This document shows positions 20,725-35,636 of a stretch of 38,454 nucleotides of DNA, piece after piece. Positions within the stretch are counted from its first letter, which is position 1; each line of letters starts with the position of its first letter. The notes under the pieces are model-generated. The model saw nothing but the letters and a program-made list of their open reading frames with translations. It made no database searches and was not told the origin of the DNA. Both the position numbers and the translations under genes were made by a program. This DNA is from a virus. Location of the stretch: IMG/VR virus record IMGVR_UViG_3300032236_001456, positions 1 to 38,454 of that record; one strand, written 5' to 3'.

Positions 20725-20750
20725 ATCCTCGGGGTTTCTACTTCGAGGAT
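20725..20750 (+). terminator. Terminator between convergent units
   Basis: A 7-bp stem (20725-20731 with 20744-20750) and a long T run on the plus strand. It separates the plus-strand genes from the convergent exported-protein block. Confidence 0.8.
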
Positions 20751-20754
20751 TTTT

Positions 20755-22296
20755 TTATAATACCATTCTTGAACCAATTAAGAAATTGTTTGTAAATCTT
20801 GTACCGGGCTGTGTGCTCATATTTAATTTATAATTAAAACTCATACCGAACCTTTTAGATATTTTATAATCAACACTTGTTCCTACTAAAAATCCAAAAT
20901 GTCTGTTAACTAATGTCGTACCTGCCATTGAATTATATGCCAATGGTGATGACATGGCAAAAACTTGAGGTGAGTATGTTAATTTTCTACTATAGACAAA
21001 TGGTTTAGTCCAAAAGACAACCGCTGAAGTTATATAACCTGGATCATATCCGGTTTTGTTAGTGTTACGTAATAATAAATTTATCATACCCACATTGTAT
21101 CCATATGTTCCATATTTTGGATTTGGTTTTATCCAAGTATAACTAACTAAATTCATTAAATTTCCATTCAAATATGCGGTTGTCAATCCATATGAACTTA
21201 TTGAATTTAATTTACCACCATCCATATTCATTTTTGTGTAACCACCACTCAGAGCAAATTGATTTAATGTACTCCAAATCATAGCATTAGCACTATATGA
21301 TTCATCACCCATCAACGATGATTTACTCCAACCCAAACCAAGTATCGCACTGTATTGTTTATTTTGTCCTTCTGTTGTTGTTAAATCAGAAGCAATTAAA
21401 GTTGGATTCATGGCACTTTGCTTCTTTTTTTCTTCTTTCTTTTTTTGTTGTTCTTCTTTCTTTTTTTCTTCCTCTTTTTTCTTTTCTTCTTTACTATCGG
21501 ATTTTTTTTCATCAGATTTTTTACTTTCAGATTTTGATTCTGATTTTGATTCGCTTTTACTTTCAGATTTAGTTTCCGATTTTGATTCACTTTTACTTTC
21601 AGATGAACTACTTTCCGATTTTGATTCTGATTTTTGTTCTGATGAAGATGATGAACCACTTGATTTACTTTCTCCACCTGATGAACTTGATGATGACGAT
21701 GAACTTGATGATGACGATGAACTACTTTCAGTACTACCACCTCCTGTTGTTGAACCTCCTCCTGAACTTGATGATGAACCACTAGCAGGTGGTGGTGAAG
21801 ATGATGCCGATGATGGTGGAGGTGGTGGAGCTGCCGAACTTGCGGCGGCGGATGATGCTGAACTACTTGCTGCAGAACTTGCAGAAGAAGATGCTGCTGA
21901 TGATGCGGCACCACTTGCAGCACTTGAAGCTGCCGAACTTGCGGCACTTGAAGCTGCAGAACTTGCCGCTTGTGATGCTGCAGCCGCTGCCGCTTGGGAA
22001 ACAGTATTTTGTATTGTCTGTTGTACTGTTTGACTTACGGGACATGCCAATGAATTATATGAATCGTAAGTTTTTTGTAACCACAATTGTAAAGTACCGT
22101 CCGTCGCTTGTGTTTGTGTAAATGTTTTTATTTGATTATAAAAAGAAACTACTGCATTTCCATTAACATATGTTGTTGTTGCAATTTTAACTTCACCCGT
22201 ACATTTATCAAAAAATGTTTGAGTGTAAGTAATTTGTCCATAAGATTTTAAACCTATGAATAATAAAATTAATAAAGATACAATAATTTTTTTCAT
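20755..22296 (-). CDS. Exported Ser/Ala-rich outer-membrane-like protein
   Basis: 513 residues: signal peptide (1-20, ends SYGQ), a short N-terminal domain with two Cys, then a long low-complexity region. That region is Ala/Ser blocks (about 100-165), Ser runs and Ser-Lys-Ser-Glu repeats (about 175-265), and a Glu/Lys-rich helix (to about 293). The C-terminal ~215 residues alternate aromatic and polar strands and end in SRMVL, as in small outer-membrane beta-barrels. The architecture suggests a surface anchor carrying an extended stalk, but could also be a fibrous virion-associated protein. It is the last gene of the block; its ATG overlaps the previous stop by one base. Confidence 0.65.
   Translation of the reverse strand: MKKIIVSLLILLFIGLKSYGQITYTQTFFDKCTGEVKIATTTYVNGNAVVSFYNQIKTFTQTQATDGTLQLWLQKTYDSYNSLACPVSQTVQQTIQNTVSQAAAAAASQAASSAASSAASSAASSAASGAASSAASSSASSAASSSASSAAASSAAPPPPPSSASSSPPPASGSSSSSGGGSTTGGGSTESSSSSSSSSSSSSSSSGGESKSSGSSSSSEQKSESKSESSSSESKSESKSETKSESKSESKSESKSESKKSDEKKSDSKEEKKKEEEKKKEEQQKKKEEKKKQSAMNPTLIASDLTTTEGQNKQYSAILGLGWSKSSLMGDESYSANAMIWSTLNQFALSGGYTKMNMDGGKLNSISSYGLTTAYLNGNLMNLVSYTWIKPNPKYGTYGYNVGMINLLLRNTNKTGYDPGYITSAVVFWTKPFVYSRKLTYSPQVFAMSSPLAYNSMAGTTLVNRHFGFLVGTSVDYKISKRFGMSFNYKLNMSTQPGTRFTNNFLIGSRMVL
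21420..21990 (-). repeat. Low-complexity Ser/Ala and Ser/Lys coding repeats
   Basis: Trinucleotide-like runs encoding Ala-Ser-Ser, poly-Ser and Ser-Glu-Ser-Lys units. Such DNA is prone to slippage, so length may vary between isolates. Confidence 0.85.
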
Positions 22297-23114
22297 TATT
22301 GATTATTCAAACCAATTGATATTTGATTATAATTTCTTATTGGATCCCTATCTATTTTTAATGTAAAAAATTTGAAATCTCTTAATATACCAAATTTAAA
22401 TGTTGTAAAATTTGAATTTGATTTAGGAAATGATATTCCCCCAAGTGCATCTTTACCTTGATATCTTATATCTTCGTGTCCAAAACCAATCATTCCATGA
22501 ACACCTAATTTACCAAACTTTTTACCTCCACCAAGATATAACGCACCTTGTTTAACAAAATCATTTTTACTAAGTGGAAAATCTACTTCGTTAATTCTAC
22601 CATACGGGTAAAATTGGTTTTGATCAATATCATAAGACATTGTATAATCTAAAATAAAATATCCTTTATTTCCACCAATAGCTCCCCAAAACGAAGCTTG
22701 TTTATTATTTGTGTGCCCAATTCCCGCTGTGAAATATTGAACTTTTTCTATTGTATCTCTTCTACCGTTTTCGTAGATACGAACTACACTTCTATGTCTC
22801 CATCCGTAATTATCGTACCATAAATATGGATATGGTTGATACCAACCCCAAGTTCCATAATAAAGTCCATAAGGATTCATTATAGTAGGTCTATAAGTTC
22901 TTACTAATGGTTTACCTTCAAATCTGTCACCAGGTCTAATTGGTGCAGTTTCAGTTCTCCATTTACTAACTCCATTTTGTTGTGGTACTGAAGGTGATAC
23001 TCTTGGTGATTCATATCTTTGTTGAGGTGGATTACTTCTCCAATGAGATACTTGTGATTGTAAAATGTTTGTATACATTAAAATTAATCCTGTTATTAAT
23101 AAAATCTTTTTCAT
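22296..23114 (-). CDS. Exported outer-membrane-like protein
   Basis: 272 residues with a signal peptide (MKKILLITGLILMYTNILQS). The early mature region is Arg/Pro/Tyr-rich (NPYGLYYGTWGWYQPYPYLW). The second half has repeated beta segments (GALYLGGGKKFGKLGVHGMI, then FGHEDIRY) that resemble a Bacteroidetes outer-membrane barrel, ending in GLNN plus Gln. It overlaps the PspC-like gene by 4 bases (ATGA) and the next gene by one base, so it is translated as part of the block. Function unknown. Confidence 0.65.
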   Translation of the reverse strand: MKKILLITGLILMYTNILQSQVSHWRSNPPQQRYESPRVSPSVPQQNGVSKWRTETAPIRPGDRFEGKPLVRTYRPTIMNPYGLYYGTWGWYQPYPYLWYDNYGWRHRSVVRIYENGRRDTIEKVQYFTAGIGHTNNKQASFWGAIGGNKGYFILDYTMSYDIDQNQFYPYGRINEVDFPLSKNDFVKQGALYLGGGKKFGKLGVHGMIGFGHEDIRYQGKDALGGISFPKSNSNFTTFKFGILRDFKFFTLKIDRDPIRNYNQISIGLNNQ

Positions 23115-23290
23115 ACACTTTTAGTTAAAATTGCTGTTAATAAATAACCTGTTATTATTGGGATTGGTGAAAATATTAAAAAAGTAAATAATAATCTCCA
23201 CACTAAAGGGTCAATATTTGTTTTATGACTTAAGCCACCACAAACACCAAAAAAAATTCTATCGTCATATATTCTATAAAATTTTTTCAT
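23111..23290 (-). CDS. PspC-domain membrane protein
   Basis: A 59-residue protein read from the ATG at 23290. It carries the PspC signature RIFFGVCGGLSHKTNIDP, then VWRLLFTFLIF and a hydrophobic GYLLTAIL segment. Bacterial PspC proteins are small inner-membrane proteins linked to envelope stress. The coding frame is supported by tight coupling: its ATG overlaps the stop of the Ntn-hydrolase gene by one base and its TGA overlaps the next ATG by 4 bases. Confidence 0.8.
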   Translation of the reverse strand: MKKFYRIYDDRIFFGVCGGLSHKTNIDPLVWRLLFTFLIFSPIPIITGYLLTAILTKSV

Positions 23291-24261
23291 TATGTTGGTA
23301 ATTTATTTCCTTTATCGTCATGAGTTCTTTCTCCTTCAATTTTAATTTTTATTTTAGGAGAATAACCTTTTGGTAATCTATTATCAATCCCCTCAAATTT
23401 ACCCATTTCATTATCCATTCTAACTGTCACTTCTTTCTTTTCCAAATTCATCATAATCTGTCCGACTGTTGACATATTATATTGATTTTTCATTCTATAT
23501 GGATTAAAGAACTTATTTTTATCATATTGTTCTTTCATTCTATCAATAACTTCTTGATCTGTTTTTACGTCTTTTAAATGTTCCTTTGCATATTTCATTC
23601 TCAAATGAGATGATTTCTTTTTAATACCGTGAGTATAACCTGCTTGTTCATGAGATATACCATGATTAGTCCTCACATCAACTTTTTCATCTTTACTAAA
23701 TTTATGAATAATAGGACTATCCTTACTTGTCATTTCAATAACAAATATGTTTCTTGGACTAGCAACAAACGTTTCACCTTTAACACCTACTTTCTTTTTA
23801 TCTCCAGCATCATATGATATTATTGATTTTATAATATCTCTCATTTTTGTATATGTTAATGCCTTTCTTAATTTAGCACCATCAGATGCACTTATTTTTT
23901 TTTCGGTACCATCATTTTTAATTAATGGTTTATCCTTTTTTTCTCTTTGTTTTTTTTCAATTTTATCACTTTCTTTTTCATCTTGTCTAACTAGTAAACT
24001 TGAATTGACAATTCCAAATCCATATTCATTCATACCTTCCGACCAATCCGTATCAATATCTCTCCAATATACCATTTCCACATTATCTACAATTTCGTGA
24101 ACAACTTCCATTTTAGCAACATATCCTCTATCTCTATTTTTTGCCAACACAATTCCATCATTTAAACGAACCGCAGCAATTGTACATTCTTCAATTACAT
24201 CTAATTTAGATTCTTTTAACATTTCTAAATGTTCTAATACAATTTTTTCAATCTTTTCCAT
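23290..24261 (-). CDS. Predicted Ntn hydrolase (C45/C59-like)
   Basis: The 323-residue protein has features of N-terminal-nucleophile amidohydrolases: a propeptide-like stretch of 25 residues ending E-E, then Cys26 in CTIAAVRLNDGIVLAKNRDR, with N-R-D at 42-44. Further on come MNEYGFGIVNSSLL and a VRTNHG segment followed by KKSSHLRMKY, matching the TNH and SS-x-x-R pattern of the C45 acyltransferase group. The family cleaves linear amide bonds and matures by self-cleavage before Cys. A Lys-rich insert lies around 95-130. No signal peptide, so probably cytoplasmic. The substrate is unknown. Confidence 0.65.
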   Translation of the reverse strand: MEKIEKIVLEHLEMLKESKLDVIEECTIAAVRLNDGIVLAKNRDRGYVAKMEVVHEIVDNVEMVYWRDIDTDWSEGMNEYGFGIVNSSLLVRQDEKESDKIEKKQREKKDKPLIKNDGTEKKISASDGAKLRKALTYTKMRDIIKSIISYDAGDKKKVGVKGETFVASPRNIFVIEMTSKDSPIIHKFSKDEKVDVRTNHGISHEQAGYTHGIKKKSSHLRMKYAKEHLKDVKTDQEVIDRMKEQYDKNKFFNPYRMKNQYNMSTVGQIMMNLEKKEVTVRMDNEMGKFEGIDNRLPKGYSPKIKIKIEGERTHDDKGNKLPT

Positions 24262-24265
24262 GTTA

Positions 24266-24273
24266 TATAAATA
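24266..24273 (-). promoter_or_regulatory. TATTTATA box before Ntn hydrolase gene
   Basis: TATTTATA on the minus strand in the 25-base gap between the FeoA-like terminator and the ATG at 24261. It would allow restart of transcription, with a very short leader. Confidence 0.3.
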
Positions 24274-24279
24274 TTAAAA

Positions 24280-24301
24280 AAAGGGGTTATTCTACCCCCT
24301 T
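24280..24301 (-). terminator. Terminator overlapping the FeoA-like stop codon
   Basis: A GC-rich stem (24280-24287 with 24294-24301, one mismatch) with the stop codon in the loop region, followed on the minus strand by seven T. It probably ends or attenuates the upstream part of the block. Confidence 0.65.
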
Positions 24302-24520
24302 CAAACATATTCTGTCTAATTCTTCTTGTCTAAGTGCAACTCTTGATGATGTATCTTCATTTTCAGATAGAATATTAACCACCCACAATCCTAATTTTTT
24401 GTCTTCTATTTCAATTTTTTCACCTGTTATAAATCCCATTTCCATTAATCTTAATCTAAGACACGGGGTACATTTTTCACAATTTTCAGGTTGTGGAACG
24501 TCTATTACCTCGTATTTCAT
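24287..24520 (-). CDS. FeoA-like SH3-fold protein
   Basis: The 77-residue protein resembles FeoA domains: LRLMEMGFITGEKIEIED, then WVVNILSENEDTSSRVALRQ and a final LDRICLKG, where FeoA ends in ALR-x-x-EA-x-x-I. FeoA domains regulate the FeoB iron transporter or form the C-terminal part of iron-dependent repressors. Here an added C-x-x-C-x-x-C stretch (CEKCTPC) before the domain could bind metal. No feoB is present. Its ATG overlaps the CsgG-like stop by one base. Confidence 0.65.
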   Translation of the reverse strand: MKYEVIDVPQPENCEKCTPCLRLRLMEMGFITGEKIEIEDKKLGLWVVNILSENEDTSSRVALRQEELDRICLKGVE

Positions 24521-25239
24521 TATTTGGTAAAAACACCCTTTTTAATCATTTTATCAAGAATATTTGCACAAGCAATATCTAATGCTTTTTTAGTTGCAAT
24601 TGAAATTGTTGATTGATTAAATTTAATTGGATCAACAGTTGCGTCAGATAATAAAGTTAATTCACGGTTTGTTTTTGCTTCACCTAACCCAGATGCCCCA
24701 ATTATTGTTCCTGTTTGTGCATCGGTAAATCTAACTTGAAGACCTATACGAGTTACCATATTGTCTTTAATACCGTCTTTTAAATTGATAGTTTCATCTT
24801 CTGATACTGAATAATCATATACTTCAATTTCAACAAAATAATGAGCCAAACGAATTTTTCCACGTCCATCTAATTTATCTTCAGAAATACCAGCTTGAGA
24901 TGCTTGGAATTGTTTTACCATTCTGTTCTTAATTTCCGTACGATCTTCAGTAAATTGAAATCTACCTAAATTATCAAGATATTCTAATGTAATGTTTGCC
25001 ACACCCAATCCAACACGTTTTTCTTTTAATTCGGGATACATTTCATAAGTTTCATCGTTTATACCACATTTTAGGATTTGAATTGGAACTTGCGGACCGT
25101 CATAATTCAAATAAGCTGAGATATCTTTCTTTTTTTCAAAATCCGCCTTAAATTCTTCTGTTTTAGTTCTACCTATAGTTTGGCTATTTGTAACAAGACT
25201 TACCAAACAAACTACCAATAAGATTAATAATTTTTTCAT
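24520..25239 (-). CDS. Exported CsgG-like protein
   Basis: 239 residues with a Sec signal peptide (MKKLLILLVVCLVSLVTNSQ). The pattern VGLGVANITLEYLDNLGRFQ, then VTRIGLQVRFTDAQTGTIIG, and finally STISIATKKALDIACANILD is reminiscent of CsgG-family proteins (alternating small domains and a conserved end with ATRKA). CsgG forms the outer-membrane pore for curli export. There is no lipobox Cys here, so if related it is an atypical member. It lies amid other exported genes. Recognition is by pattern only. Confidence 0.5.
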   Translation of the reverse strand: MKKLLILLVVCLVSLVTNSQTIGRTKTEEFKADFEKKKDISAYLNYDGPQVPIQILKCGINDETYEMYPELKEKRVGLGVANITLEYLDNLGRFQFTEDRTEIKNRMVKQFQASQAGISEDKLDGRGKIRLAHYFVEIEVYDYSVSEDETINLKDGIKDNMVTRIGLQVRFTDAQTGTIIGASGLGEAKTNRELTLLSDATVDPIKFNQSTISIATKKALDIACANILDKMIKKGVFTK

Positions 25240-25242
25240 AAT

Positions 25243-25458
25243 TTATTTTAATTTAGGTTCTTCATACCATATATTATTGGGATCATTTTTAAATGAACCA
25301 TCTATTTTCCACATAATTTCATTTCCTATTTTAGTTTCTAATTCAGGATTAACAACCATAGTTATCATCATAAAAATTTCAAAACTTATTGCAATTATTA
25401 CCCAAGCAAATACTAATCTAACAAAAGCACCAAATAAAAAATCTTTAATTTTACTCAT
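25243..25458 (-). CDS. Small membrane protein
   Basis: 71 residues with one hydrophobic segment (FLFGAFVRLVFAWVIIAISF, extending over FEIFMMITMVV) and a short charged tail ending EEPKLK. It lies between the holin-like genes and the CsgG-like gene with a 3-base gap to the latter. Not recognised; a lysis-related or scaffold role in the membrane is possible. Confidence 0.6.
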   Translation of the reverse strand: MSKIKDFLFGAFVRLVFAWVIIAISFEIFMMITMVVNPELETKIGNEIMWKIDGSFKNDPNNIWYEEPKLK

Positions 25459-25493
25459 AAAGTGTTTTTAATAAATATAACTTTTTTAAATAA

Positions 25494-25518
25494 AAAAGGG
25501 AGTGTTTAACTCCCTTTT
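25494..25518 (-). terminator. Terminator after holin-like gene
   Basis: A perfect 10-bp stem (25494-25503 with 25509-25518) followed on the minus strand by T-rich sequence, between the stop at 25522 and the next gene. Confidence 0.85.
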
Positions 25519-25521
25519 AAC

Positions 25522-25776
25522 TTAACCCTCAGAATCATCTTTAGGAGTATCTTTTTTACTAAATTTATCAACCGTATCGGCACCCATACCAATTGCGGTA
25601 ATAATCATCACAGCATCTACCAATTTGTCTGATGGTGCAATTTCTTTAGATGAATAACTGTTAGCTAACATTGTTATACATAAAAATAGCGCCCCAAAAA
25701 ATGCTATTACTGGTTTTACTGAAATTGCTCCTCTTTCATCTTTGAAGAGATCTATAACCCATTCTTTAAATGTCAT
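25522..25776 (-). CDS. Holin-like two-helix membrane protein
   Basis: 84 residues: an amphipathic start (MTFKEWVIDLFKDERGAIS), a transmembrane helix (VIAFFGALFLCITMLANSY), a second hydrophobic segment (LVDAVMIITAIGMGA) and a charged C-terminus (KKDTPKDDSEG). Size and topology fit small phage holins, which open the inner membrane at lysis. It has its own terminator. No endolysin is visible in the window, so the lysis assignment is tentative. Confidence 0.6.
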   Translation of the reverse strand: MTFKEWVIDLFKDERGAISVKPVIAFFGALFLCITMLANSYSSKEIAPSDKLVDAVMIITAIGMGADTVDKFSKKDTPKDDSEG

Positions 25777-25804
25777 AATTTTTGTTTTTATTTTTGTCGT
25801 TTAT

Positions 25805-26380
25805 TTATCCTTCTACGTCTTCACGTAATAGTCCACATTTTTGACACTCCTCATGCCCGTCATGATCAGAATCTCCCCACTCATGTTCACATTGTCTGTG
25901 AGCGTGATGTTCAAATTCCAATTTTTCCATTTCATGTTCATGTTTTTGTTGATTAACTTCTAATTCAAATTCTTGTTTGTTTTCAACAACCGCTAAATCT
26001 CTTGCTGCACTAGCTCCCGCAATAAATGCGTCAGGTATAATCGGAGTTGGAGGTGTATTAGTTACTTTCATATCATTTGTATTAGAAAGTGTTGTACCGT
26101 CTTCCTCATCCATTTTTTGAACTAACATTTTATCCTTATCTTGATCACTGAACCAATAATCAATAATTTTACCATACGAACCAATAAACGCACCCAATAA
26201 TAACATTAAAAGTTCTTTCCAAGCTGCAGCCATAGGAGTACCTAATGAAATAGCGGTAAAAATACCCACTATAATTAACATAAATCCTCCCAATACCATT
26301 GCAGTTATATACCATCTTCTTGCCATCACGGAATTTAATAAATCCCTAAATCCCGTATTTGGTTTTTGTTCTTCAGCCAT
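25805..26380 (-). CDS. Two-helix membrane protein with His/Cys-rich tail
   Basis: 191 residues: two hydrophobic segments (WYITAMVLGGFMLIIVGIFT and a second around LLMLLLGAFIGSYG), then a charged coiled region and a C-terminus rich in His and Cys (CEHEWGDSDHDGHEECQKCG) that could bind a metal ion. The membrane part resembles holins; the His/Cys tail is unusual. It overlaps the upstream 37-residue gene by 8 bases. Confidence 0.6.
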   Translation of the reverse strand: MAEEQKPNTGFRDLLNSVMARRWYITAMVLGGFMLIIVGIFTAISLGTPMAAAWKELLMLLLGAFIGSYGKIIDYWFSDQDKDKMLVQKMDEEDGTTLSNTNDMKVTNTPPTPIIPDAFIAGASAARDLAVVENKQEFELEVNQQKHEHEMEKLEFEHHAHRQCEHEWGDSDHDGHEECQKCGLLREDVEG

Positions 26381-26486
26381 TTTTTTCCTTTTTTGTTAAA
26401 TCCAAGGATGTTTTTATTGCCATCCCAATTATTATAATTGTAAATATTAATGTTCCAATTTGATATCCTGTTACGGCTATTACCAT
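26373..26486 (-). CDS. 37-residue membrane peptide
   Basis: Read from the ATG at 26486 (MVIAVTGYQIGTLIFTIIII, then GMAIKTSLDLTKKEKNG): one transmembrane helix and a Lys-rich tail. It overlaps the upstream stop by 7 bases and the downstream start by 8, filling an otherwise empty 99-base gap. Size and position suggest a lysis accessory or membrane regulator; too small to recognise by family. Confidence 0.55.
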   Translation of the reverse strand: MVIAVTGYQIGTLIFTIIIIGMAIKTSLDLTKKEKNG

Positions 26487-26842
26487 TTTGGATCGGCATT
26501 TTTAAATTCGTCCCCTTCTTTCTTTTTTACAGGTTTTGCAGGTTCCGCAGGTTTTGTAGCGGGAGTTGTTCCACCATTTTTATTAATAATTACAGTTTTA
26601 CCCGCCGCAGCCTGTTGTTGTGCCGGTAAATTGATATTAATTGATTGTTGAGTTTGAGGTTGTGTTTTACCGTCATCTTTTGGTTTTTGTAGGTAAGTCA
26701 TTAAAAATGCACCACCTGCAGTTACCAATGTACCAACTGTACCAATAATTGTTTTTTTCAAACCACTCATTGAACCGTCATTATGCTTTTCATTTTTAGC
26801 CATTGCGTCCTCAGGAGTTTGTTCTTTTTTTGCCTTTGCCAT
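26480..26842 (-). CDS. Membrane-anchored Lys/Pro/Gln-rich protein
   Basis: 120 residues with one hydrophobic stretch (TIIGTVGTLVTAGGAFLMTY) after a charged N-terminus and a Pro/Lys/Gln-rich extended tail. Topology resembles spanins or holin accessory proteins, anchored in the inner membrane with a flexible periplasmic tail. Not recognised by family. Confidence 0.55.
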   Translation of the reverse strand: MAKAKKEQTPEDAMAKNEKHNDGSMSGLKKTIIGTVGTLVTAGGAFLMTYLQKPKDDGKTQPQTQQSININLPAQQQAAAGKTVIINKNGGTTPATKPAEPAKPVKKKEGDEFKNADPKW

Positions 26843-26867
26843 AAAATAGTCTTTTTATATAATTATC

Positions 26868-27236
26868 TTAAATTTTATTAAAATCGGTAATCGCCAACAT
26901 ATTACCGGCAGCATCATAAATTGCGATTCTATATGCCGAACTTGGTAAAGCAGACGTATAAAGGGTTAAAATATTATCACCAGATTTAACATCAGAAGTT
27001 GATTTTGATACAACTCTGTTTGTAATGTCAGTTATTTTAACAGTTACAGTTTGAGCTGTCTGACTCTTTACATTCATTGAAACTTCAGATGTAACAAAGG
27101 TTGTTTGTAATTTTATGCCCACAGTACTTGAAATTGCCAAGTTAGGATCGATTTGTTGTTGATTTACTGCAAGAGGTACGTTTTTACTACAACCTACAAG
27201 TACGAATAAACCAATTAGGAGAGATAGTTTTTTCAT
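26868..27236 (-). CDS. Lipoprotein resembling a T9SS sorting-tail domain
   Basis: 122 residues. The signal peptide MKKLSLLIGLFVLVGC ends in a lipobox Cys16. The mature domain (VTVKITDITNRVVSKSTSDV, then GDNILTLYTS and SAYRIAIYDAAGNMLAI) has the alternating strand and turn pattern of type A C-terminal domains that target proteins to the Bacteroidetes type IX secretion system. Here it stands alone behind a lipid anchor rather than at the end of a large protein. Similar in layout to 27238-27597. Confidence 0.6.
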   Translation of the reverse strand: MKKLSLLIGLFVLVGCSKNVPLAVNQQQIDPNLAISSTVGIKLQTTFVTSEVSMNVKSQTAQTVTVKITDITNRVVSKSTSDVKSGDNILTLYTSALPSSAYRIAIYDAAGNMLAITDFNKI

Positions 27237-27237
27237 T

Positions 27238-27597
27238 TTATTTAATTGTTATTTTTGTTTTGTTTATTTGATTATTATTGTTATCCATCAACACTACCGT
27301 TAAGTAAGTTTGAGTTAATGATTTTGTATAAATGTTTAATGAATTCATTCCTGTTTTACCTGTGAATTTTTCTCTACTTACCACTTGATTTTGAATTGTA
27401 TCAATCATGGTTAAAGTATAAATTCCGCCAGATTGTAGGGTAAAATTAATTGAATCTCCATTTGACACCGTATTCATCGGATTATCAAAGAAATTAACAG
27501 TATTTGTTTTTAATTGTACGGGTGCATTTAATACTTTAGTACATGAAACTATAAAAACAACACAACACAATATTATAATTTTTACGATGTTTGTCAT
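27238..27597 (-). CDS. Lipoprotein, second T9SS-tail-like domain
   Basis: 119 residues with lipobox Cys19 (IIILCCVVFIVSC). The mature part (GGIYTLTMIDTIQNQVVSRE, then GMNSLNIYTKSL and YLTVVLMDNNNNQINKTKI) has the same strand/turn pattern as its neighbour. The two are probably divergent paralogues. The start overlaps the preceding gene's stop by 4 bases; one base separates it from the next gene. Confidence 0.6.
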   Translation of the reverse strand: MTNIVKIIILCCVVFIVSCTKVLNAPVQLKTNTVNFFDNPMNTVSNGDSINFTLQSGGIYTLTMIDTIQNQVVSREKFTGKTGMNSLNIYTKSLTQTYLTVVLMDNNNNQINKTKITIK

Positions 27598-29492
27598 ATT
27601 AATTTAATTTTAAGTTGTGTTCCACCTTGATTAACGGCATCGGTTGTTCCCACCGAAATCAAACCAAATATGTTATTTAATTTTGTTAATGTTTTGAAAG
27701 TTATTTTATACGTTGTGCTATTATCCAAAAATGTATTCCCATCACTATTCAAAGAACCAACATTTATATATGAACCTTTATCCACACCAAAATTTGTGGG
27801 ATTACCTATAGTCGTAAATTTAACGGTTGAAAATTTTAACAAACTATTATCATAATTTATTTGAAATTGGGTACCCACCACTTGTTGTGATAATGGGTTT
27901 AATGTTATTGTTACAACAACTGAATCACCAATTAATTCCGATGTAATCATTGATTGTATTTCATTACTTACAGACATTGATCTTAATGACATTGTTGTGT
28001 AACCATTAGAAGTTGGAGTTGTTGAATGTGATAAATTAACATCTCCCTTCCACGCCATTGCTAAATTCAAAGTGTCAGTTGATTTACCTGTATTGATTTC
28101 AAATGTATATGTACTATCTAATTTATTTGTAAATGTATTCCAATTAGATTTACCAATCATATCATACGTTGATTGTGGTATAATTCTTAATGTTTTACTT
28201 AATTTAAATGTATCGACTAACGATTTTACACCTGTTAAATGTTGTAAAAGTAAGAAAGCATCTCTTTCATCTAAAACACCATCATCATTTACATCTGCGT
28301 TTTGATATTGAATACCATATGTAAATTCATTTCCACTTTGGTTACCAAATAACCCGACATTTGACACTTCCTTAAATGCCAACCAAACATCGGATACTGT
28401 TACAATACTATTATATAAAGTAGTTAAATTGTTTGTAGTTGATATTGATACTGATTGTGTTTTGTATTGCATTACAGAAGCAAATGATATATCACATGTA
28501 AATGCATAATTGTCATATCCCGCATTTCTAATATATTGTGTATTAGTTGATGTACCATCTGTTAATTTTGGTAATGCAGTTGGAATCGTATAATGAGCCC
28601 AATATATATCATTTCCCACATATGTTACAGAACCTTCATACACATCCAAAATTTTAATTTGAGTAACAGTTGATGGATCAGTATTACCAAATTTTCTTAA
28701 ATCAATATAAAGTGTGTTTGTACTATTTGTTGTATTAACATAGGACCATTCAGCACCTCCCGCAACAATTACCCCTTTATTTCCATTTGACACTTTTGTA
28801 CTGTCCAATAATGTTGTTATATCCGCAGTACCTGTCGAACTTAATCCGTTAGATCCGACAGAAAATTTAGTAGCATCTAAATTTGTATTTGTATTAAAAT
28901 CAAGAAAACCTTTTTTTGTTGGTGATGCTGGTGGTGTCGAATAAACTTCATCGGCTTGAGTCGTATAACTACTCTGAGATGGTCTTTTCCATGCAACATA
29001 CATACCCCAACCACCACCCCAGTTTTGATATCTTGCCATAAATGTATAAGATTGACCAGCAACTAAGTTGATAGTCCCATAACGATATCCACCAAATCCA
29101 TGAGGACCATAAAATGATGTTACAACACTTCCATTTAAAGAAAAATCCACACCATCATCACCATCAATACCAAAAGTATATGTCCCCGTTTCTTTTGCTA
29201 CAAACCATCCTGTTACTTTAATACCAGTATAGGCACCACCATTAGGAACTCCAGATGGTTGCCAACCATTTGCAAAATATAACGTTTTTGCTGCTGTTGA
29301 TGTTCCACTTGCATAAACTTTAGCCCCTTTTGTAACATCAAACATATTAACAAAATCAGTCGCATTATTAGCATATTGTCCAGCACCATTACTAATAATA
29401 TTATATACCGTATAATTCAAATAACCCACTCCTGATTGGGAGTAGGTTACTGAAAATATTAATAAGAATAAAAACGTTAATAGTTTTTTCAT
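27594..29492 (-). CDS. Exported PA14/dockerin/cohesin-like protein
   Basis: 632 residues: signal peptide to residue 19; a PA14-like carbohydrate-binding domain at about 25-185 (YTGIKVTGWFVAKETGTYTF, then GIDGDDGVDF and LVAGQSYTFMARYQNWGGGW); a middle beta domain. At 394-424 comes a dockerin-type Ca-binding repeat (ADVNDDGVLDERDAFLLLQH then LTG). From about 500 to the end is a cohesin-like domain (VVVTITLNPLSQQVVGTQFQ then INYDNSLLKFSTV). Cohesin and dockerin normally bind each other in surface assemblies. It overlaps its paralogue (29492-31129) by one base. It may build a host-surface or virion-associated assembly. Confidence 0.7.
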   Translation of the reverse strand: MKKLLTFLFLLIFSVTYSQSGVGYLNYTVYNIISNGAGQYANNATDFVNMFDVTKGAKVYASGTSTAAKTLYFANGWQPSGVPNGGAYTGIKVTGWFVAKETGTYTFGIDGDDGVDFSLNGSVVTSFYGPHGFGGYRYGTINLVAGQSYTFMARYQNWGGGWGMYVAWKRPSQSSYTTQADEVYSTPPASPTKKGFLDFNTNTNLDATKFSVGSNGLSSTGTADITTLLDSTKVSNGNKGVIVAGGAEWSYVNTTNSTNTLYIDLRKFGNTDPSTVTQIKILDVYEGSVTYVGNDIYWAHYTIPTALPKLTDGTSTNTQYIRNAGYDNYAFTCDISFASVMQYKTQSVSISTTNNLTTLYNSIVTVSDVWLAFKEVSNVGLFGNQSGNEFTYGIQYQNADVNDDGVLDERDAFLLLQHLTGVKSLVDTFKLSKTLRIIPQSTYDMIGKSNWNTFTNKLDSTYTFEINTGKSTDTLNLAMAWKGDVNLSHSTTPTSNGYTTMSLRSMSVSNEIQSMITSELIGDSVVVTITLNPLSQQVVGTQFQINYDNSLLKFSTVKFTTIGNPTNFGVDKGSYINVGSLNSDGNTFLDNSTTYKITFKTLTKLNNIFGLISVGTTDAVNQGGTQLKIKLI

Positions 29493-31129
29493 TATTCAAC
29501 TGTTAGGTTTATTTTTTTACCATTTCCATCAACGGCATCAGCCAAAACGGTAAAGAATAAACCAGCGGTACTTGTCAAAGGTGTTGTCGGTGTAAAAATT
29601 AATTTATACGGAGTACCTTTTTTAATTCTTGCATTTTTCATTTGATCCAAAGAACCAAATGTTATTCTATTACCATTATTAGTTGAGAAATTAGTCACTG
29701 TACTTCCTGCATCAAACACGACATTAGTTAAAGTCAATTTTGTGTTATCATATTGTAATATAACTTCAATACCCGCTAAGCTATCCACAGGTAAATTTGT
29801 ATTTAAAATAACATTACCTGTTGTTGCATCTATTGAAGACGATAAACTCATAGTTACATTTTGTAATGTCGGTACAGTATATCCCATTGATGTGATTGCA
29901 TTTGATTTAATAACCATATCGGAATTTATTGATTGTCCCGCAATTGCTCCTGGTATTAAAGATGGATCACTTGAATTGGAATAATCTAAATCACCAGTAT
30001 AAGCGTATGCAAAATCTTCAGTTTGACTTGCCGATGTGATGGTAACAGTTTTATCTGTTAATATACCACTTGCCCAAGCTGATTTTTTACCATATAAGAA
30101 ACCAATTTGAGAAGCTGTTGATGATGGTAAATAAGTTTTAGTTGAAACATCAATTCCCATTACATAGGCAAATGTGTAATAAGCATCATTGTTATCAAAA
30201 ACTGTATCACCTATAGTTACATGTCCAATTGCTCTTTCTAAAGTTGGATATGTAAAGTATTTTGATGTACCATCTAAACCAACTGAAGAGATACCTAAAA
30301 ACGATTTGTAAGCATCAGATACAGTGATAATATTACTTAAATAAGATTTATTAGTTGTAGGTGTAATAATAACACCAAATTTATCACCAACTTTAGGGGT
30401 CGTAAATGAAGCTATACCTTGAGTATTAAATGAAGTTTGTGCTATTGATTGTGCTGAATAATTTATTGTACCATCATTATTAAGTGGTTGTAATATCGCT
30501 TTCAAATTTGTAATTGTTGTGTCATTTGATGGATATGCAATTCTCACATTAAATGCAGCAACACCTCCTGTTACAGTTCCCAATGATAAAGTACTTTGAG
30601 ATGTTGTAATTGGTGTAATATATGCACTATTCGCATCAATAGAATATGCAATATCTAATTTGTGAATATTTGTGTAATCTGATTTTGACAATACAATATA
30701 TTTTTGAGTGGCAACAATACCATCAATAGATGCATCGGTTCTTTGTACTGTTAATTGTCCAACATTCCAATCACTGTTTGCTGTATAAGCCCAAGGTGTT
30801 ACCAAATATTGATCATATAAACTTGTTGCAACTTTATTGTTAGCAGTACTTGCTGCGAATGAATAGTTACTCCAACTTGTGTAGAATGTTTGTGAAGAAT
30901 TACCTTGTGAGAATGTGGTGGAAAGATAAGACAATGCCTTATTGTTATATTGATATCTTAACCAAAAATAACGAGGTGTTGTTGTTCCTTTTGCAACTGT
31001 ATATTTGATTTGTATCGTATCTCCCACTTTATACGGTGCAGTTTGTACTATTGACTGATCAACAGTTAATTGTGAGAAAGCAGAAAAGGTTATTAAAAAT
31101 AACCCAATGAATGATATTATTTTTTTCAT
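29492..31129 (-). CDS. Exported cohesin-like protein, paralogue
   Basis: 545 residues: signal peptide to residue 19 (MKKIISFIGLFLITFSAFSQ). It shares with the 27594-29492 protein a middle segment: VSDAYKSFLGISSVGLDG here, VSDVWLAFKEVSNVGLFG there. A dockerin-like position near 313 is present but degenerate (TIGDTVFDNNDAYYTF), lacking a full Ca-binding loop. A GDLDYSNSSDP turn and a C-terminal cohesin-like domain (about 400-545, VSLAGIEVILQYDNTKL-like) follow. So one paralogue keeps the dockerin repeat and the other has lost it, which suits an assembly of two non-equivalent partners. Confidence 0.65.
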   Translation of the reverse strand: MKKIISFIGLFLITFSAFSQLTVDQSIVQTAPYKVGDTIQIKYTVAKGTTTPRYFWLRYQYNNKALSYLSTTFSQGNSSQTFYTSWSNYSFAASTANNKVATSLYDQYLVTPWAYTANSDWNVGQLTVQRTDASIDGIVATQKYIVLSKSDYTNIHKLDIAYSIDANSAYITPITTSQSTLSLGTVTGGVAAFNVRIAYPSNDTTITNLKAILQPLNNDGTINYSAQSIAQTSFNTQGIASFTTPKVGDKFGVIITPTTNKSYLSNIITVSDAYKSFLGISSVGLDGTSKYFTYPTLERAIGHVTIGDTVFDNNDAYYTFAYVMGIDVSTKTYLPSSTASQIGFLYGKKSAWASGILTDKTVTITSASQTEDFAYAYTGDLDYSNSSDPSLIPGAIAGQSINSDMVIKSNAITSMGYTVPTLQNVTMSLSSSIDATTGNVILNTNLPVDSLAGIEVILQYDNTKLTLTNVVFDAGSTVTNFSTNNGNRITFGSLDQMKNARIKKGTPYKLIFTPTTPLTSTAGLFFTVLADAVDGNGKKINLTVE

Positions 31130-31130
31130 A

Positions 31131-31631
31131 TTATTTTGTAAAAATTTTATTTATTAAAGACACACATGTCTTTTTTATTGATTGTGATAAAGCTTGTTGA
31201 TTAATTTCGGTACTACCTTCGTCTGTAATCAAGGTAGATGTGGATATTTCAGAACTTGATTCTTCCGCAACACCATCTTTTATTTTCTTACCGTCTTTGT
31301 TGTATAAATAACCCTTTATGATTACCAATGTTTCCTCCACGTCACTATGAAACACAGAAACATTTCTCTTAGTTTTATTTACATCAAAAAATAGGATTTC
31401 AGCTTTAAATACCAAATCGGCATCAGATTGAGTTGACACAATGTCATAATTTTTATCTTGTAAAATTTCTAAAAAGATGTTCTTACACCCGAAACCAAGA
31501 TTACGGTTTCCAGCCATTTTACCCATTATTACTTTGTTCTCAACTCCACCTAAGAATACTTTTTGGGCATTAAGTGTACCCACGAATAGTATCAAAAGAA
31601 GGGAGAGAGATACCTTCCTGATTTTTGTCAT
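31131..31631 (-). CDS. Exported hypothetical protein
   Basis: 166 residues with a Sec signal peptide (MTKIRKVSLSLLLILFVGTL then NAQ). The mature domain has VIMGKMAGNRNLGFGCKNIF, later DADLVFKAEILFFDV and a Ser/Thr-rich end. Mild resemblance in arrangement to small CsgG/LpoB-like domains, but not enough to assign. First gene of the exported-protein block; no consensus promoter is obvious upstream. Confidence 0.55.
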   Translation of the reverse strand: MTKIRKVSLSLLLILFVGTLNAQKVFLGGVENKVIMGKMAGNRNLGFGCKNIFLEILQDKNYDIVSTQSDADLVFKAEILFFDVNKTKRNVSVFHSDVEETLVIIKGYLYNKDGKKIKDGVAEESSSEISTSTLITDEGSTEINQQALSQSIKKTCVSLINKIFTK

Positions 31632-31730: not shown

Positions 31731-32213
31731 ATGAGTCAAATACACCCAACTGCCGTTATCGGTGAAAACGTTATAATTGAAGATGATGTATATATAGGAC
31801 CACTATGTGTTATAGGGTATCCTGCAGAATGGAAAGGAAATGAAGGAATTGATATGGGAGTACATATTAAAAAGGGCACAAGAATAACCGGTATGGTTAC
31901 AATAGACTCTGGTGTAAACAGAAAAACCACAATTGGTGAAAATTGTTATCTAATGAAACATTCACATGTTGGACATGACGCCATTTTAGGTGATAATGTG
32001 ACTTTGTCATGTGGGGTAAAAATTGGTGGACATTCAACAATAGGTGATGGAACTAATATTGGTTTAAATGCTGTGATTCATCAAAAATTAAATATTCCGG
32101 AAGGATGTATGATAGGGGCTTCCGCATTTGTTGGTAAAAAGAGTATTTTAAAACCAAATCACAAATATGCCGGTGTTCCTGTAAAAGAAATTGGTACAAA
32201 TGAGCGACGTTAG
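31731..32213 (+). CDS. Left-handed beta-helix (hexapeptide) acyltransferase
   Basis: 160 residues of hexapeptide repeats ([LIV]-G-x4): IHPTAVIGENVIIEDDVYIG, later HVGHDAILGDNVTLSCGVKI, IGDGTNIGLNAVI, ending AGVPVKEIG. This is the LpxA/WbbJ-type acyl- or acetyltransferase fold acting on nucleotide sugars. The H-V-G-H-D segment holds the likely catalytic histidine. It overlaps a glycosyltransferase gene by 14 bases, so both probably modify a sugar on the phage or host surface. Confidence 0.85.
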   Translation: MSQIHPTAVIGENVIIEDDVYIGPLCVIGYPAEWKGNEGIDMGVHIKKGTRITGMVTIDSGVNRKTTIGENCYLMKHSHVGHDAILGDNVTLSCGVKIGGHSTIGDGTNIGLNAVIHQKLNIPEGCMIGASAFVGKKSILKPNHKYAGVPVKEIGTNERR

Positions 32214-32847
32214 ATTAACACTTAGTATGCCATGTTTTGGTAGACCTGAAAGAACAAAAAGATCAATTGAATGTATCATAAATCAAGATACAAATGGTTG
32301 GGAAGCTTTTATTATGGGGGATTGTTGTCCTCATTTTCAAAAATTAATAGATTCTGGTTATTTGGAATCAATTAAACTTGAACAAGAAAAGAAAGGTAAT
32401 ATTATCCATTATTTTAATGCTGAAGTAAATGGTGGTGGTTGTGGATACAAACTTACAAATCATGCTATTAGGAACGCATCAGGTAAGTATTTTATATTTT
32501 ATGCAAATGATGATATACTTTTACCCAATCATTTTTCCAATTATTTAGAAATTGAAAAAGAACCTGATTTAGATTTTATGTATTTTAATACATGGGTAGA
32601 TCCGACTCGTTCAATAAGAAATTCGTTTTTACAATATTGTTTAATTGGACATAGTGAAATTATAGTTAAAACTGACTTAGCAAAAGAAATTACACCCCAT
32701 AATGATAGATATGGACATGATTGGGATTTCATAAAAGAAGTAATTGAAAAAGGAAAAGGGAAAAAATCAGAATCAAATTATCTGACATATTTGGTAATGT
32801 CTCAAACTTACCCTGATAGAATAGTTACGAACGATATAATAGATTAA
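32200..32847 (+). CDS. Family 2 glycosyltransferase
   Basis: I start at the ATG at 32200 (MSDVRLTLSMPCFGRPERT), which lies inside the upstream gene; a TTG at 32191 is less likely. The 215-residue protein is GT-A type: an N-terminal Rossmann segment SMPCFGRPERTKRSIECIIN, a nucleotide-sugar and metal motif YANDDIL (a DxD variant), and a C-terminal HDWDFIKEVI. It would transfer one sugar to an unknown acceptor. Confidence 0.85.
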   Translation: MSDVRLTLSMPCFGRPERTKRSIECIINQDTNGWEAFIMGDCCPHFQKLIDSGYLESIKLEQEKKGNIIHYFNAEVNGGGCGYKLTNHAIRNASGKYFIFYANDDILLPNHFSNYLEIEKEPDLDFMYFNTWVDPTRSIRNSFLQYCLIGHSEIIVKTDLAKEITPHNDRYGHDWDFIKEVIEKGKGKKSESNYLTYLVMSQTYPDRIVTNDIID

Positions 32848-33260
32848 TAAAGAACTTGTTTGTGTTTTTTTAAAATAAAATTACCAAGATTTACTCTTGT
32901 TTCAATTTGAGGTATTGAAAATTCAACAATTTCTCTTATATCTTCTATAATTGGATTATCTTCACCTTCTAATTTTGGATTTTCTTTAAAAAAGATATAG
33001 CGATTTTTATCAAAACGTTTTTTCATATCAGCAAATGATTCTTTAAACATAATCATGTCCATCATCATTTCTTCCATGTGTAAAAGATGTGGTGATAATT
33101 TTTTATAAAGAAATGATTCATCTACCTTTTGTAGATAAGCAAGTAAAGTATATTGTTTGTATTCAAAATCAATTGGTTCATCAATATACCAAGTAATTGG
33201 GATGATATCAATCATACTCTTTATTGATAAATATTCTTTTATTTTATTTGTTATTTTCAT
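32844..33260 (-). CDS. Hypothetical protein
   Basis: 138 residues on the opposite strand, overlapping the glycosyltransferase tail by 4 bases. It is helical and charged, with a Met-rich middle (HMEEMMMDMIMF) and YIDEPIDFEYKQYTLLAYLQ. No family recognised, no signal or membrane segment. It reads away from the PhyH gene across a short divergent gap. Confidence 0.55.
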   Translation of the reverse strand: MKITNKIKEYLSIKSMIDIIPITWYIDEPIDFEYKQYTLLAYLQKVDESFLYKKLSPHLLHMEEMMMDMIMFKESFADMKKRFDKNRYIFFKENPKLEGEDNPIIEDIREIVEFSIPQIETRVNLGNFILKKHKQVLY

Positions 33261-33298
33261 TTATATGTTGTATATTAGTAACAATAAAAAATATTAAA

Positions 33299-34081
33299 AT
33301 GGGAAATTTTAAACATCTTACAGATTTGGAAGTCCAACAAATGACATTTGATTGGAGATATAGAGGATTTACCACATTAGAACTTTTAACTGAAGAAGAA
33401 TGTGATGAAATAAACGATGAACTTGAACGTTTACGTATTGAAAGAAAAGGAACTAAAACCGATGACGGGAAAGAGTGGGGTGAATGGGATCCATTCGCAT
33501 ATCCACATAAACTTTCAGAAAAACTTTGTAAATTATACGTTCATCCAAAACTTATTGAAGCGTGTGAATTCTTAATGGAAGGTGATATCATCGGAATGCA
33601 AAGTTGGGCATATTTTAAACCACCAGGACAATTAGGTAGAGATCAACATCAAAATGCTTTCTATACAGGTTGTAAACATAATGAAATTATTAATACAGCA
33701 CTTGCGTTAGATAATCATGATGACGCAAATGGTGCGGTATGGAATTATGAAGGTTCACATAGATTACCTGTTCTACCGATTGAAATAGATGAAGAAAGAG
33801 CAAAAACAAACCCTGCTTTTTGGAGAAATGAAAGAGGTAAACCTTGTATTATGCCTGAAGGACATGACTTCAAAAAAATATCAGGTGTTCTTAAAAAAGG
33901 ACAATGTGTTTTATTACACTCACATTGTGTACACGGTTCAGAACCAAATAATTCAAATAGATTCCGTAGAAATTTCTTAGGCGGATTCTTAAAGAAAGGT
34001 GCATCATTTAATGAAGGTACACATATGAAACGTGAACCAATTGATGTTTATGGTTTAAGAAAAACACTTTGGGGAGAATAA
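33299..34081 (+). CDS. PhyH-like Fe(II)/2OG oxygenase
   Basis: I start at the ATG at 33299 (MGNFKHLTDLEVQQ), giving 260 residues; the in-frame extension to 33224 is hydrophobic non-homologous sequence overlapping the divergent gene. It follows the phytanoyl-CoA dioxygenase family: YRGFTTLELLTEEECDEINDEL, SWAYFKPPGQLG, LLHSHCVHGSEPNNSNRFRR. The metal-binding HxD position reads H-Q-N (DQHQNAFY), so the carboxylate ligand seems replaced by Asn; the second His and the 2OG-binding Arg are kept. Activity may be altered. Substrate unknown. Confidence 0.8.
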   Translation: MGNFKHLTDLEVQQMTFDWRYRGFTTLELLTEEECDEINDELERLRIERKGTKTDDGKEWGEWDPFAYPHKLSEKLCKLYVHPKLIEACEFLMEGDIIGMQSWAYFKPPGQLGRDQHQNAFYTGCKHNEIINTALALDNHDDANGAVWNYEGSHRLPVLPIEIDEERAKTNPAFWRNERGKPCIMPEGHDFKKISGVLKKGQCVLLHSHCVHGSEPNNSNRFRRNFLGGFLKKGASFNEGTHMKREPIDVYGLRKTLWGE

Positions 34082-34325: not shown

Positions 34326-34401
34326 CTAGATGTAGAGGAGTCAGGCTTTTCTCGCTGCTTTTGGAAAGCAGAACACGTTGGTTCGAATCCAGCCATCTAG
34401 A
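34326..34401 (+). tRNA. tRNA-Pro(TGG)
   Basis: Full cloverleaf. Acceptor CTAGATG pairs with CATCTAG, anticodon loop TTTGGAA between CTGCT and AGCAG, T loop TTCGAAT. CCA is not encoded. Reads codon CCA. Confidence 0.9.
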
Positions 34402-34408
34402 CAACATA

Positions 34409-34479
34409 TCCGGTTTGGTGCAAAGGTAGCATATAAGTCTCCAAAACTTCAGATGTGGGTTCAATTCCTACAACCGGTG
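34409..34479 (+). tRNA. tRNA-Trp(CCA)
   Basis: Acceptor TCCGGTT with AACCGGT (first pair mismatched), anticodon loop CTCCAAA, T arm GTGGG TTCAATT CCTAC. The weak end pair is the only oddity. Confidence 0.8.
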
Positions 34480-34484
34480 CAAAG

Positions 34485-34555
34485 TGTCCTTTAGTATAGC
34501 GGTAGTACACGTGAATTTGGATCACGTAGCTGTGGTTCAAATCCATGAGGGACAA
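34485..34555 (+). tRNA. tRNA-Gln(TTG)
   Basis: Acceptor TGTCCTT with AGGGACA, anticodon loop ATTTGGA between CGTGA and TCACG, T loop TTCAAAT. Confidence 0.9.
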
Positions 34556-34561
34556 CAAAAA

Positions 34562-34630
34562 TGCGGGGAGGAGGGTTCCCGACCAGTCTCATAAGCTGTG
34601 TTTTTCCGGTTTCGACTACCGGCCCCGCAA
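34562..34630 (+). tRNA. tRNA with CAT anticodon (Met or Ile2), degenerate D arm
   Basis: Acceptor TGCGGGG with CCCCGCA, like bacterial initiator tRNA but with a paired 1-72. Loop CTCATAA. D arm is poorly formed and T stem has T-A at the usual G53-C61 position. Which CAT tRNA it is cannot be told. Confidence 0.7.
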
Positions 34631-34662
34631 CTAAAATATATAATATGAAAAAACAACATGAC

Positions 34663-34687
34663 ATGCATTAGGTAAACCTAATAGCAT
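34663..34687 (+). promoter_or_regulatory. Hairpin covering a start codon
   Basis: ATGC-ATTAGG pairs with CCTAAT-(A)-GCAT around a TAAA loop. The ATG at 34686-34688 is in the base of the stem, so translation of the 34686 ORF could be limited by the fold. Confidence 0.45.
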
Positions 34688-34880: not shown

Positions 34881-34884
34881 ATAA

Positions 34885-34956: not shown

Positions 34957-34958
34957 CT

Positions 34959-35010: not shown

Positions 35011-35064
35011 GTTCATAACTTTTTTTAAATGAACAGATATTTATTATGAACAAATTATTATATT

Positions 35065-35508: not shown

Positions 35509-35529
35509 CCTTGCACATTTTTTATTTAA

Positions 35530-35615: not shown

Positions 35616-35636
35616 TAAAACAATAAACTTTTAACT

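Follow-up and report, generated by a model that had tools for sequence, protein, structure and literature searches.

The viral stretch analysed here (the window, 38,454 nucleotides) is a T4-like fragment that carries a block of 15 ORFs at positions 20755–31631, all on the minus strand. The first-pass annotation had given these coordinates and this strand correctly but had counted sixteen genes. Its T4-like assignment was confirmed by PHROG matches to the major head protein (8e-65), portal (7e-64), large terminase (7e-37) and head protease (2e-42), and is also backed by an RNA ligase/tail-fibre-attachment family. The overlaps of 1–8 bases that it had described between the genes hold for six of the 14 junctions, which overlap by 1 or 4 bases, whereas the other eight are gaps of 1–99 bases. 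A convergent terminator-like stem lies at the end of the block (20725–20750); overall, scans for sigma-70 promoters and terminators performed no better than shuffles. The genes are the following:

31131..31631, minus strand: g166, exported protein (signal peptide) of the CsgG/PelC superfamily
29492..31129, minus strand: g545, exported protein with a C-terminal cohesin-type domain
27594..29492, minus strand: g632, exported adhesin-like protein with an N-terminal PA14 head, a dockerin-like segment and a cohesin-type C-terminus
27238..27597, minus strand: g119, lipoprotein, paralogue of g122
26868..27236, minus strand: g122, lipoprotein resembling a T9SS type A sorting domain that stands alone
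26480..26842, minus strand: g120, small protein with a membrane anchor and a low-complexity tail
25805..26380, minus strand: g191, membrane protein with a TM segment
25522..25776, minus strand: g84, small membrane protein with a TM segment
25243..25458, minus strand: g71, small membrane protein with a TM segment
24520..25239, minus strand: g239, exported CsgG/PelC-fold protein
24287..24520, minus strand: FeoA-domain gene, 77 aa, accessory (Pfam FeoA 5.5e-7)
23290..24261, minus strand: 323-aa gene, accessory, without export signal
23111..23290, minus strand: PspC-domain membrane protein, 59 aa, accessory (Pfam PspC 1.5e-15)
22296..23114, minus strand: g272, exported protein (signal peptide)
20755..22296, minus strand: g513, signal peptide and C-terminal 12-stranded outer-membrane barrel

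Export signals were called by crude hydropathy and lipobox rules. By these rules, the earlier description of the genes as mostly exported, lipidated or membrane-bound stood, since 13 of the 15 carry a signal peptide, a lipobox or a helix: six signal-peptide proteins (513, 272, 239, 632, 545 and 166 aa), two lipoproteins (122 and 119 aa), four membrane proteins with clear helices (59, 71, 84 and 191 aa) and one with a weak helix (120 aa). The FeoA-domain and 323-aa products look cytoplasmic; to the eye, the N-terminal residues of the latter look like those of a Cys-Ntn hydrolase. Export signals or membrane helices occur in at most 2 of the 28 other genes (Fisher p = 2.6e-7). The lipobox is kept in 69 of 80 relatives of g119 and in 119 of 130 relatives of g122, and block genes with estimable dS are under purifying selection (dN/dS 0.03–0.6), which is strong in g84. 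The g191 protein appears holin-like by size and topology only.

Relatives of this module, similar in order and always on one strand, were found in hundreds of aquatic viral contigs belonging to three lineages, and the hosts of the module-bearing T4-like viruses are Flavobacterium-type water bacteria. The g239 and g513 genes occur together on one strand in every near-complete locus of the three clades (34/34, 46/46 and 36/36; g513 in 116/116), and most of these loci also contain g120 and g166, the latter in 111 of 116. Among window-like modules, g191 is present in 26/34, g272 in 15/34, the FeoA-domain gene in 7/34, the PspC-domain gene in 5/34 and the 323-aa gene in 1/34. The key gene, g239, is phage-restricted: 522 relatives were detected in viral contigs, and cellular genomes are essentially devoid of them (a single relative in 84,980 genomes, with no relative at all in another 200 genomes from the same family of bacteria). 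In a sample of 20 large contigs picked by the head protein alone, g239 and g513 co-occurred perfectly, in 10 of them, and the module thus behaves as an accessory unit.

The only isolate group found to carry homologues of g120, g239, g513 and g166 together with a cohesin protein is that of Flavobacterium phage vB_FspM_immuto_2-6A, which infects Flavobacterium sp. LMO8, in gp13–gp19. Here gp17 and gp18, both annotated as hypothetical proteins, correspond to g239 and g513, respectively, and the counterparts of g545/g632 lie in gp13–gp15. In contrast to the window, immuto has its cohesin fused with a T9SS sorting domain, and its lectin is encoded by a separate gene. Our literature search found nothing relevant on immuto, or on cohesins in phages.

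Neither g239 nor g166 gave a credible match in sequence searches of PDB and Pfam. The AF2 model of g239 (pLDDT 76), however, was matched by Foldseek to CsgG (4uv2, E 4.6e-7, probability 1.00) and PelC (5t0z, 6.5e-6), with TM-scores of 0.33–0.53 for CsgG chains. This gene is the best conserved of the block (dN/dS 0.03–0.08). CsgG and PelC carry a lipid anchor, whereas the signal peptide of g239 has no lipobox; furthermore, the predicted hairpins of g239 are short and charged, and the protein may therefore be a periplasmic ring or a regulator instead of a pore. Profile comparison by hhalign points to g166 as a distant, divergent paralogue of g239 (96.5%, E 8.9e-10), a result obtained with deeper alignments, thin ones having returned a probability of only 8.9%. 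Matches of g166 to cohesin SA-2 (E 0.001) were judged to be due to chance, this being a protein of eukaryotic chromosomes that has only its name in common with bacterial cohesin domains.

The g513 protein consists of a signal peptide, a conserved two-Cys N-terminal domain, a linker rich in Ala/Ser and then in Lys/Glu/Ser, and a C-terminal barrel (encoded by 20758–21417) modelled by AF2 with 12 strands and a pLDDT of 93.6. In Foldseek, the barrel came closest to NanC (7.3e-7) and FapF (1.2e-6), with TM-scores of up to 0.70; both are 12-stranded barrels that the score does not separate. The predicted layout of g513 recalls that of FapF, the amyloid exporter of the Pseudomonas Fap system, whose 12-stranded outer-membrane barrel is preceded by a disordered linker and an N-terminal domain (PMC5557850), but the identity with g513 is about 10%, NanC scores equally well, and g513 shows no sign of the coiled-coil that forms the N-terminal domain of FapF. 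The constant linkage of the genes for a CsgG-superfamily protein and a predicted outer-membrane barrel also recalls the PelBC exopolysaccharide exporter, in which a PelC ring lies beneath the PelB barrel (PMC12141448), and a PelBC chain stands at rank 50 in the Foldseek list for the g513 barrel. PelB, however, is 16-stranded and PelC is a lipoprotein, in contrast to the 12-stranded g513 and the lipobox-free g239.

The two large proteins, g545 and g632, are exported through Sec and are of an adhesin/scaffoldin type. The window copy of g632 matches PA14 (7.9e-11) and Dockerin (0.0014, below the curated cut-off), and its family contains Lectin_C in 30, Cohesin (E<=0.01) in 24, PA14 in 13 and LCCL in 11 of 53 members. 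The heads of g632, namely C-type lectin (Lectin_C), PA14 and LCCL, are exchangeable, with pairs of proteins 74% identical in their C-parts and 16% identical in their N-parts. Cohesin was detected in 19 of 38 g545 family members (E<=0.01, best 4.2e-8), the window g545 falling below this threshold, and the g545 family profile matched the scaffoldin B cohesin with an E of 0.041. The cohesin matches of both window copies lie below the curated cut-off, and the domain is clear in relatives.

The two lipoproteins, g119 and g122, are related to each other (hhalign 98.9%, E 2.8e-17), and g122 aligned with the CTDs that are fused in the immuto-like clade (hhalign 94.8%, E 5.5e-8). The sorting-domain match of the lipidated window g122 is below the curated cut-off, and that of a relative, L126, exceeds the Pfam Por_Secre_tail cut-off; g119 and g122 both resemble detached T9SS sorting domains. 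The profile of the T9SS sorting domain that the cohesin protein carries in relatives matched 10 of 13 phage records, inside the module wherever the position could be read. The membrane helix of g120 is weak in the window copy, and the C-terminal Trp is near-invariant (163 of 164 distinct homologues).

Upstream of head genes we found a promoter-like motif, TATTTATA, which occurs in 7 of the window's 43 upstream regions (0.8 expected) and, in relatives, precedes module genes as well. Within the block, g71 is preceded by a terminator-like stem (25518–25494) and a near-match to this motif. The motif being common to head-gene and module-gene upstreams, late expression of the module is suggested.

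We propose, with evenly balanced confidence, that the block is a late-expressed, phage-specific module for outer-membrane export and display. Its parts are well supported by sequence or predicted structure, and from there we infer transport and purpose. In this proposal, g239 and/or g166 would assemble as a ring at the periplasmic face of the outer membrane and act together with the g513 barrel, on the model of the PelC ring under the PelB barrel or of FapF substrate export, and g120 would link the assembly to the inner membrane, with its C-terminal tryptophan as docking end. The cohesin/lectin proteins would traverse the outer membrane by way of the g239/g166–g513 assembly, or together with it, and be held at the cell surface by the lipoproteins. 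The purpose is the weakest step: late in infection, lectin/PA14 heads might bind glycans of the host surface or of neighbouring cells, masking receptors and thereby sparing progeny from loss to debris or superinfection or, alternatively, holding cells together near the time of burst. In that case, the exchange of heads in g632 would follow host glycan diversity. More tentatively, the module could be a phage-only apparatus in which two CsgG/PelC ring proteins and the phage's own 12-stranded barrel export cohesin-bearing lectins into a surface layer or fibre, with lipoprotein anchors derived from T9SS sorting domains. We know of no bacterium that combines two CsgG/PelC-superfamily ring proteins, a 12-stranded barrel, cohesin-bearing lectins and sorting-domain-derived lipoproteins. 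The first-pass annotation had considered rebuilding of the host envelope, lysis combined with surface display, and assembly of a surface structure. Its interpretation is partly supported: the CsgG/PelC-fold proteins, the FapF/NanC-like barrel and the exported lectin/PA14/cohesin proteins fit the last option best, and nothing was found in support of envelope rebuilding.

The alternative that survives best, unlikely as we consider it, is that the adhesins are cargo of the host T9SS, which the phage mainly hijacks to coat the cell, the CsgG-fold protein and the barrel serving a separate purpose. In immuto-like relatives the cohesin protein indeed carries a fused type A sorting domain of the T9SS that scores above the cut-off, and the Bacteroidetes phage Cryophage encodes strain-variable, T9SS-tagged exported cargo, one with a PA14 domain; the part of that report available describes no CsgG-fold or barrel partner (PMC7468147). 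In the window, however, the CTD-like domain is placed on separate lipoproteins, g545 and g632 show no sorting domain in either the window clade or the L101-like clade, and the g239–g513 pair is kept where fused CTDs are absent. A role in lysis or envelope rupture, with the small membrane proteins as holins, the lipoproteins and g120 as a spanin-like pair and g239/g513 as a lysis-triggering pore, the role that has been suggested for CsgG in methylophage Melnitz (PMC9004378), is next in probability and appears quite unlikely. It would account for the number of small membrane proteins and the two small lipoproteins, as well as the tailed inner-membrane protein and the late-type promoter motifs, but family matches lend no support to lysis (weak spanin-like PHROG matches, with no holin or spanin match better than E 0.039), the lectin/PA14 heads and cohesins are left unexplained, the annotated endolysin of immuto lies outside the module, and the module markers are absent from related T4-like phages.

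Lower still, we find it improbable that the lectin/cohesin proteins are ordinary virion parts on capsid or tail, with signals that reflect their joining the particle late, in the periplasm or when the cell lyses. Exchangeable lectin heads recall receptor-binding variability and the promoter-like motif is common to head genes, but cytoplasmic T4-type assembly has no place for signal peptides, lipoboxes or an outer-membrane barrel. The absence of the g239 and g513 markers from related T4-like phages, whose contigs measure 251–310 kb, also lowers the likelihood that the products are only virion parts, an outcome that the first-pass annotation had named as refuting it. A phage curli (type VIII) system as in pelagiphages is highly improbable, and true T8SS membership was rejected: such modules do occur in phages (PMC7029224, PMC9599517), and in those of pelagimyophages and podophages (CsgG–CsgF, CsgA/B) an exported protein of the CsgG fold, like g239, is likewise encoded in an operon of aquatic T4-like phages with Gram-negative hosts, but CsgG (PF03783, 0/13), CsgF and curlin-repeat profiles, which recovered the positive control HTVC008M (1.8e-54, 5.2e-17 and 1.4e-4, respectively), gave no above-cut-off match in 13 module-bearing phage records, no profile similarity to the HTVC008M CsgG was found, and the present block differs in its two CsgG-superfamily paralogues, outer-membrane barrel, lectin/cohesin proteins and CTD-like lipoproteins.

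The conserved block of exported proteins in these phages appears not to have been described earlier. The usual view of lytic tailed phages confines their contact with the outer membrane of the host to entry and bursting. If the export and display proposal is true, these phages remodel the surface that an infected cell presents to the cells and viruses around it, and CsgG-superfamily proteins with a FapF-like barrel would be a new combination among outer-membrane export systems. The module occurs commonly among viral contigs from aquatic sources and is also carried by a phage in culture; with both immuto and its Flavobacterium host in culture, the idea is directly testable.

The window, a virus fragment of 38,454 bases (IMG/VR), encodes a T4-type head protein, head protease, portal and large terminase, together with a T4-type RNA ligase/tail-fibre-attachment gene, in agreement with the T4-like assignment of the first-pass annotation. 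The block at 20755-31631, described there as sixteen overlapping genes for exported, lipidated and membrane proteins, comprises 15 ORFs, all on the minus strand. Its exported and membrane character stands, with a signal or helix in 13 of the 15: crude rules identified six signal peptides, two lipoboxes, four clear membrane helices and one weak one, leaving two cytoplasmic-looking products. The same rules were triggered by at most 2 of 28 genes outside the block (Fisher p = 2.6e-7, block versus rest), at least one of these matches being due to a doubtful start codon. The proposed overlaps of 1-8 bases were found at 6 of 14 junctions, as overlaps of 1 or 4 bases, the others being spacings of 1-99 bases. 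Compared with relatives, the block genes exhibited dN/dS values of 0.03-0.6 where dS was estimable.

Genes of the module (minus strand; g, product length in aa)
31131-31631, minus: g166, distant g239 paralogue
29492-31129, minus: g545, Cohesin in 19 of 38 relatives
27594-29492, minus: g632, PA14 (7.9e-11) plus a dockerin-like segment scoring below cut-off (E 0.0014) in the window copy
27238-27597 and 26868-27236, minus: g119 and g122, lipoproteins
26480-26842, minus: g120, conserved C-terminal tryptophan
25805-26380, 25522-25776 and 25243-25458, minus: g191, g84 and g71, small membrane proteins
24520-25239, minus: g239, predicted CsgG-like fold
24287-24520, 23290-24261 and 23111-23290, minus: FeoA-domain, 323-aa and PspC-domain genes
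22296-23114, minus: g272
20755-22296, minus: g513, predicted barrel

Searches of g239 against Pfam and PDB sequences gave no CsgG match. An AlphaFold2 model built from 53 homologues (pLDDT 76) found its best structural match in CsgG 4uv2 (E 4.6e-7, probability 1.00), followed by PelC and other superfamily members, with moderate TM-scores to CsgG chains (0.33-0.53); among viral matches, a phage protein annotated CsgG ranked top. The paralogy of g166 was supported by hhalign (96.5%, E 8.9e-10). Its lack of a lipobox, and the short, charged segments (read by eye) equivalent to the CsgG membrane hairpins, leave a PelC-like ring and a pore equally likely for g239. In g513, a 12-stranded barrel was predicted for the last 220 residues (20758-21417; pLDDT 93.6; twelve long strands plus two short additional ones). 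It is preceded by a two-cysteine domain, which is conserved, and by a linker rich in Ala/Ser and in Lys/Glu/Ser. Foldseek ranked NanC (7.3e-7) and FapF (1.2e-6) highest, with many further FapF chains matched and TM-scores up to 0.70. This layout resembles the N-terminal domain, disordered linker and barrel of FapF (PMC5557850), although shape alone cannot tell FapF from other 12-stranded barrels.

Both g632 and g545 are exported and adhesin-like. The N-terminal half of g632 in 53 relatives matched C-type lectin (30), PA14 (13) or LCCL (11) domains, and Cohesin was recognised in 24 of the 53. There are pairs whose C-parts are 74% identical and whose N-parts are 16% identical: the heads are exchanged. 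In Flavobacterium phage immuto and its relatives, the C-terminus of a cohesin protein is a T9SS type A sorting domain that scores above cut-off; in the window clade, the counterpart is carried by g122, which aligned with those fused domains (94.8%, E 5.5e-8), and its paralogue g119 (98.9%). The sorting-domain profile gave one match each in 10 of 13 phage records, above cut-off in immuto-like phages and below it in window-like and L101-like ones, the window's match being g122. The C-terminal tryptophan of g120, present in 163 of 164 distinct homologues, suggests a docking end. Separately, immuto (NC_055915, 1-34435) encodes queuosine-pathway QueC/QueD/QueE/FolE as well as a DNA guanine transglycosylase of DpdA type, a set that suggests modification of its DNA with 7-deazaguanine.

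Recognisable relatives in viral contigs numbered 522 for g239 and 40 for g545, and more distant members used as queries added further clades, one of L101-like contigs and one that includes immuto, an isolate. In every near-complete locus the module genes share one strand; g239 and g513 occurred together in 34/34, 46/46 and 36/36 loci of the three clades, g166 in 32/34, 46/46 and 33/36, and g120 in 34/34, 38/46 and 36/36, counts that measure linkage, not prevalence, because recruitment ran through g239 and g545. In window-like modules the PspC-domain (5/34), FeoA-domain (7/34) and 323-aa (1/34) genes are optional. As an independent check, 20 large contigs were picked by major head protein alone: g239 was present in 10, g513 in exactly the same 10, and neither in three contigs of 251-310 kb. 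Thus, the module is best seen as an accessory unit outside T4-type morphogenesis. Among 84,980 cellular genomes g239 occurred once, on a 12.6-kb Flavobacterium MAG contig of similar gene order (NZ_JAHEBT010000009.1), probably a phage contig that entered the MAG through binning; it was absent from another 200 genomes of the same bacterial family.

The motif TATTTATA lies upstream of 7 of 43 window genes, mostly head genes, against 0.8 expected.

3264-3300, 4034-4060, 7405-7420, 9237-9250, 12932-12975 and 24261-24275: TATTTATA, often as GTATTTATA, upstream (by 5-40 bases) of head genes on the minus strand and of some module genes

Among window-like relatives the motif stands upstream of g272 (23/41), g239 (17/76), g166 (10/56) and g71 (7/39), and its reverse complement is near-absent at these sites. 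We infer a candidate late promoter of the phage group, common to head genes and module.

Elsewhere in the window, 31731-34081, adjoining the block and mostly divergent, carries hexapeptide-repeat acyltransferase, family 2 glycosyltransferase and phytanoyl-CoA dioxygenase-like genes, possibly for surface-glycan modification. Eleven tRNA genes (34326-37393, plus strand) are interspersed with small ORFs, one resembling endonuclease VII (35065-35508). An HSP20-like chaperone gene adjoins a 672-aa ATP-dependent protease homologue (15029-17565; PHROG 3e-243), and adjacent 81- and 83-aa genes with similar N-termini (13742-14306) look like a tandem duplication.

Sequence or predicted fold shows an exported CsgG-superfamily pair, an outer-membrane barrel, exchangeable-head adhesin-like proteins and lipoproteins with a sorting-domain-like fold, all of them linked. 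Ring and barrel would export or anchor the adhesins, display would fall late in infection, and the heads would bind glycans, masking receptors or holding cells together. Related phage systems have been proposed to capture siblings (PMC7029224, PMC9599517), to control lysis (PMC9004378) or to change the surface through T9SS (PMC7468147). Masking is slightly favoured over aggregation by analogy with the CsgG- and CsgF-bearing methylophage Melnitz, for which no clumping was seen (PMC9004378). Matches to lysis families are lacking. Membership of the type VIII system was rejected: CsgG, CsgF and curlin-repeat profiles matched the positive control, Pelagibacter phage HTVC008M, but none scored above cut-off in the 13 records that carry the module, and at profile level HTVC008M CsgG resembled neither g239 nor g166. 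The module may still work in the manner of that system. No prior description of it was found in the open-access literature searched. The module is best read as a variant of phage-encoded outer-membrane export and display, a kind of system already known, with a real chance that it constitutes a distinct phage-only apparatus.
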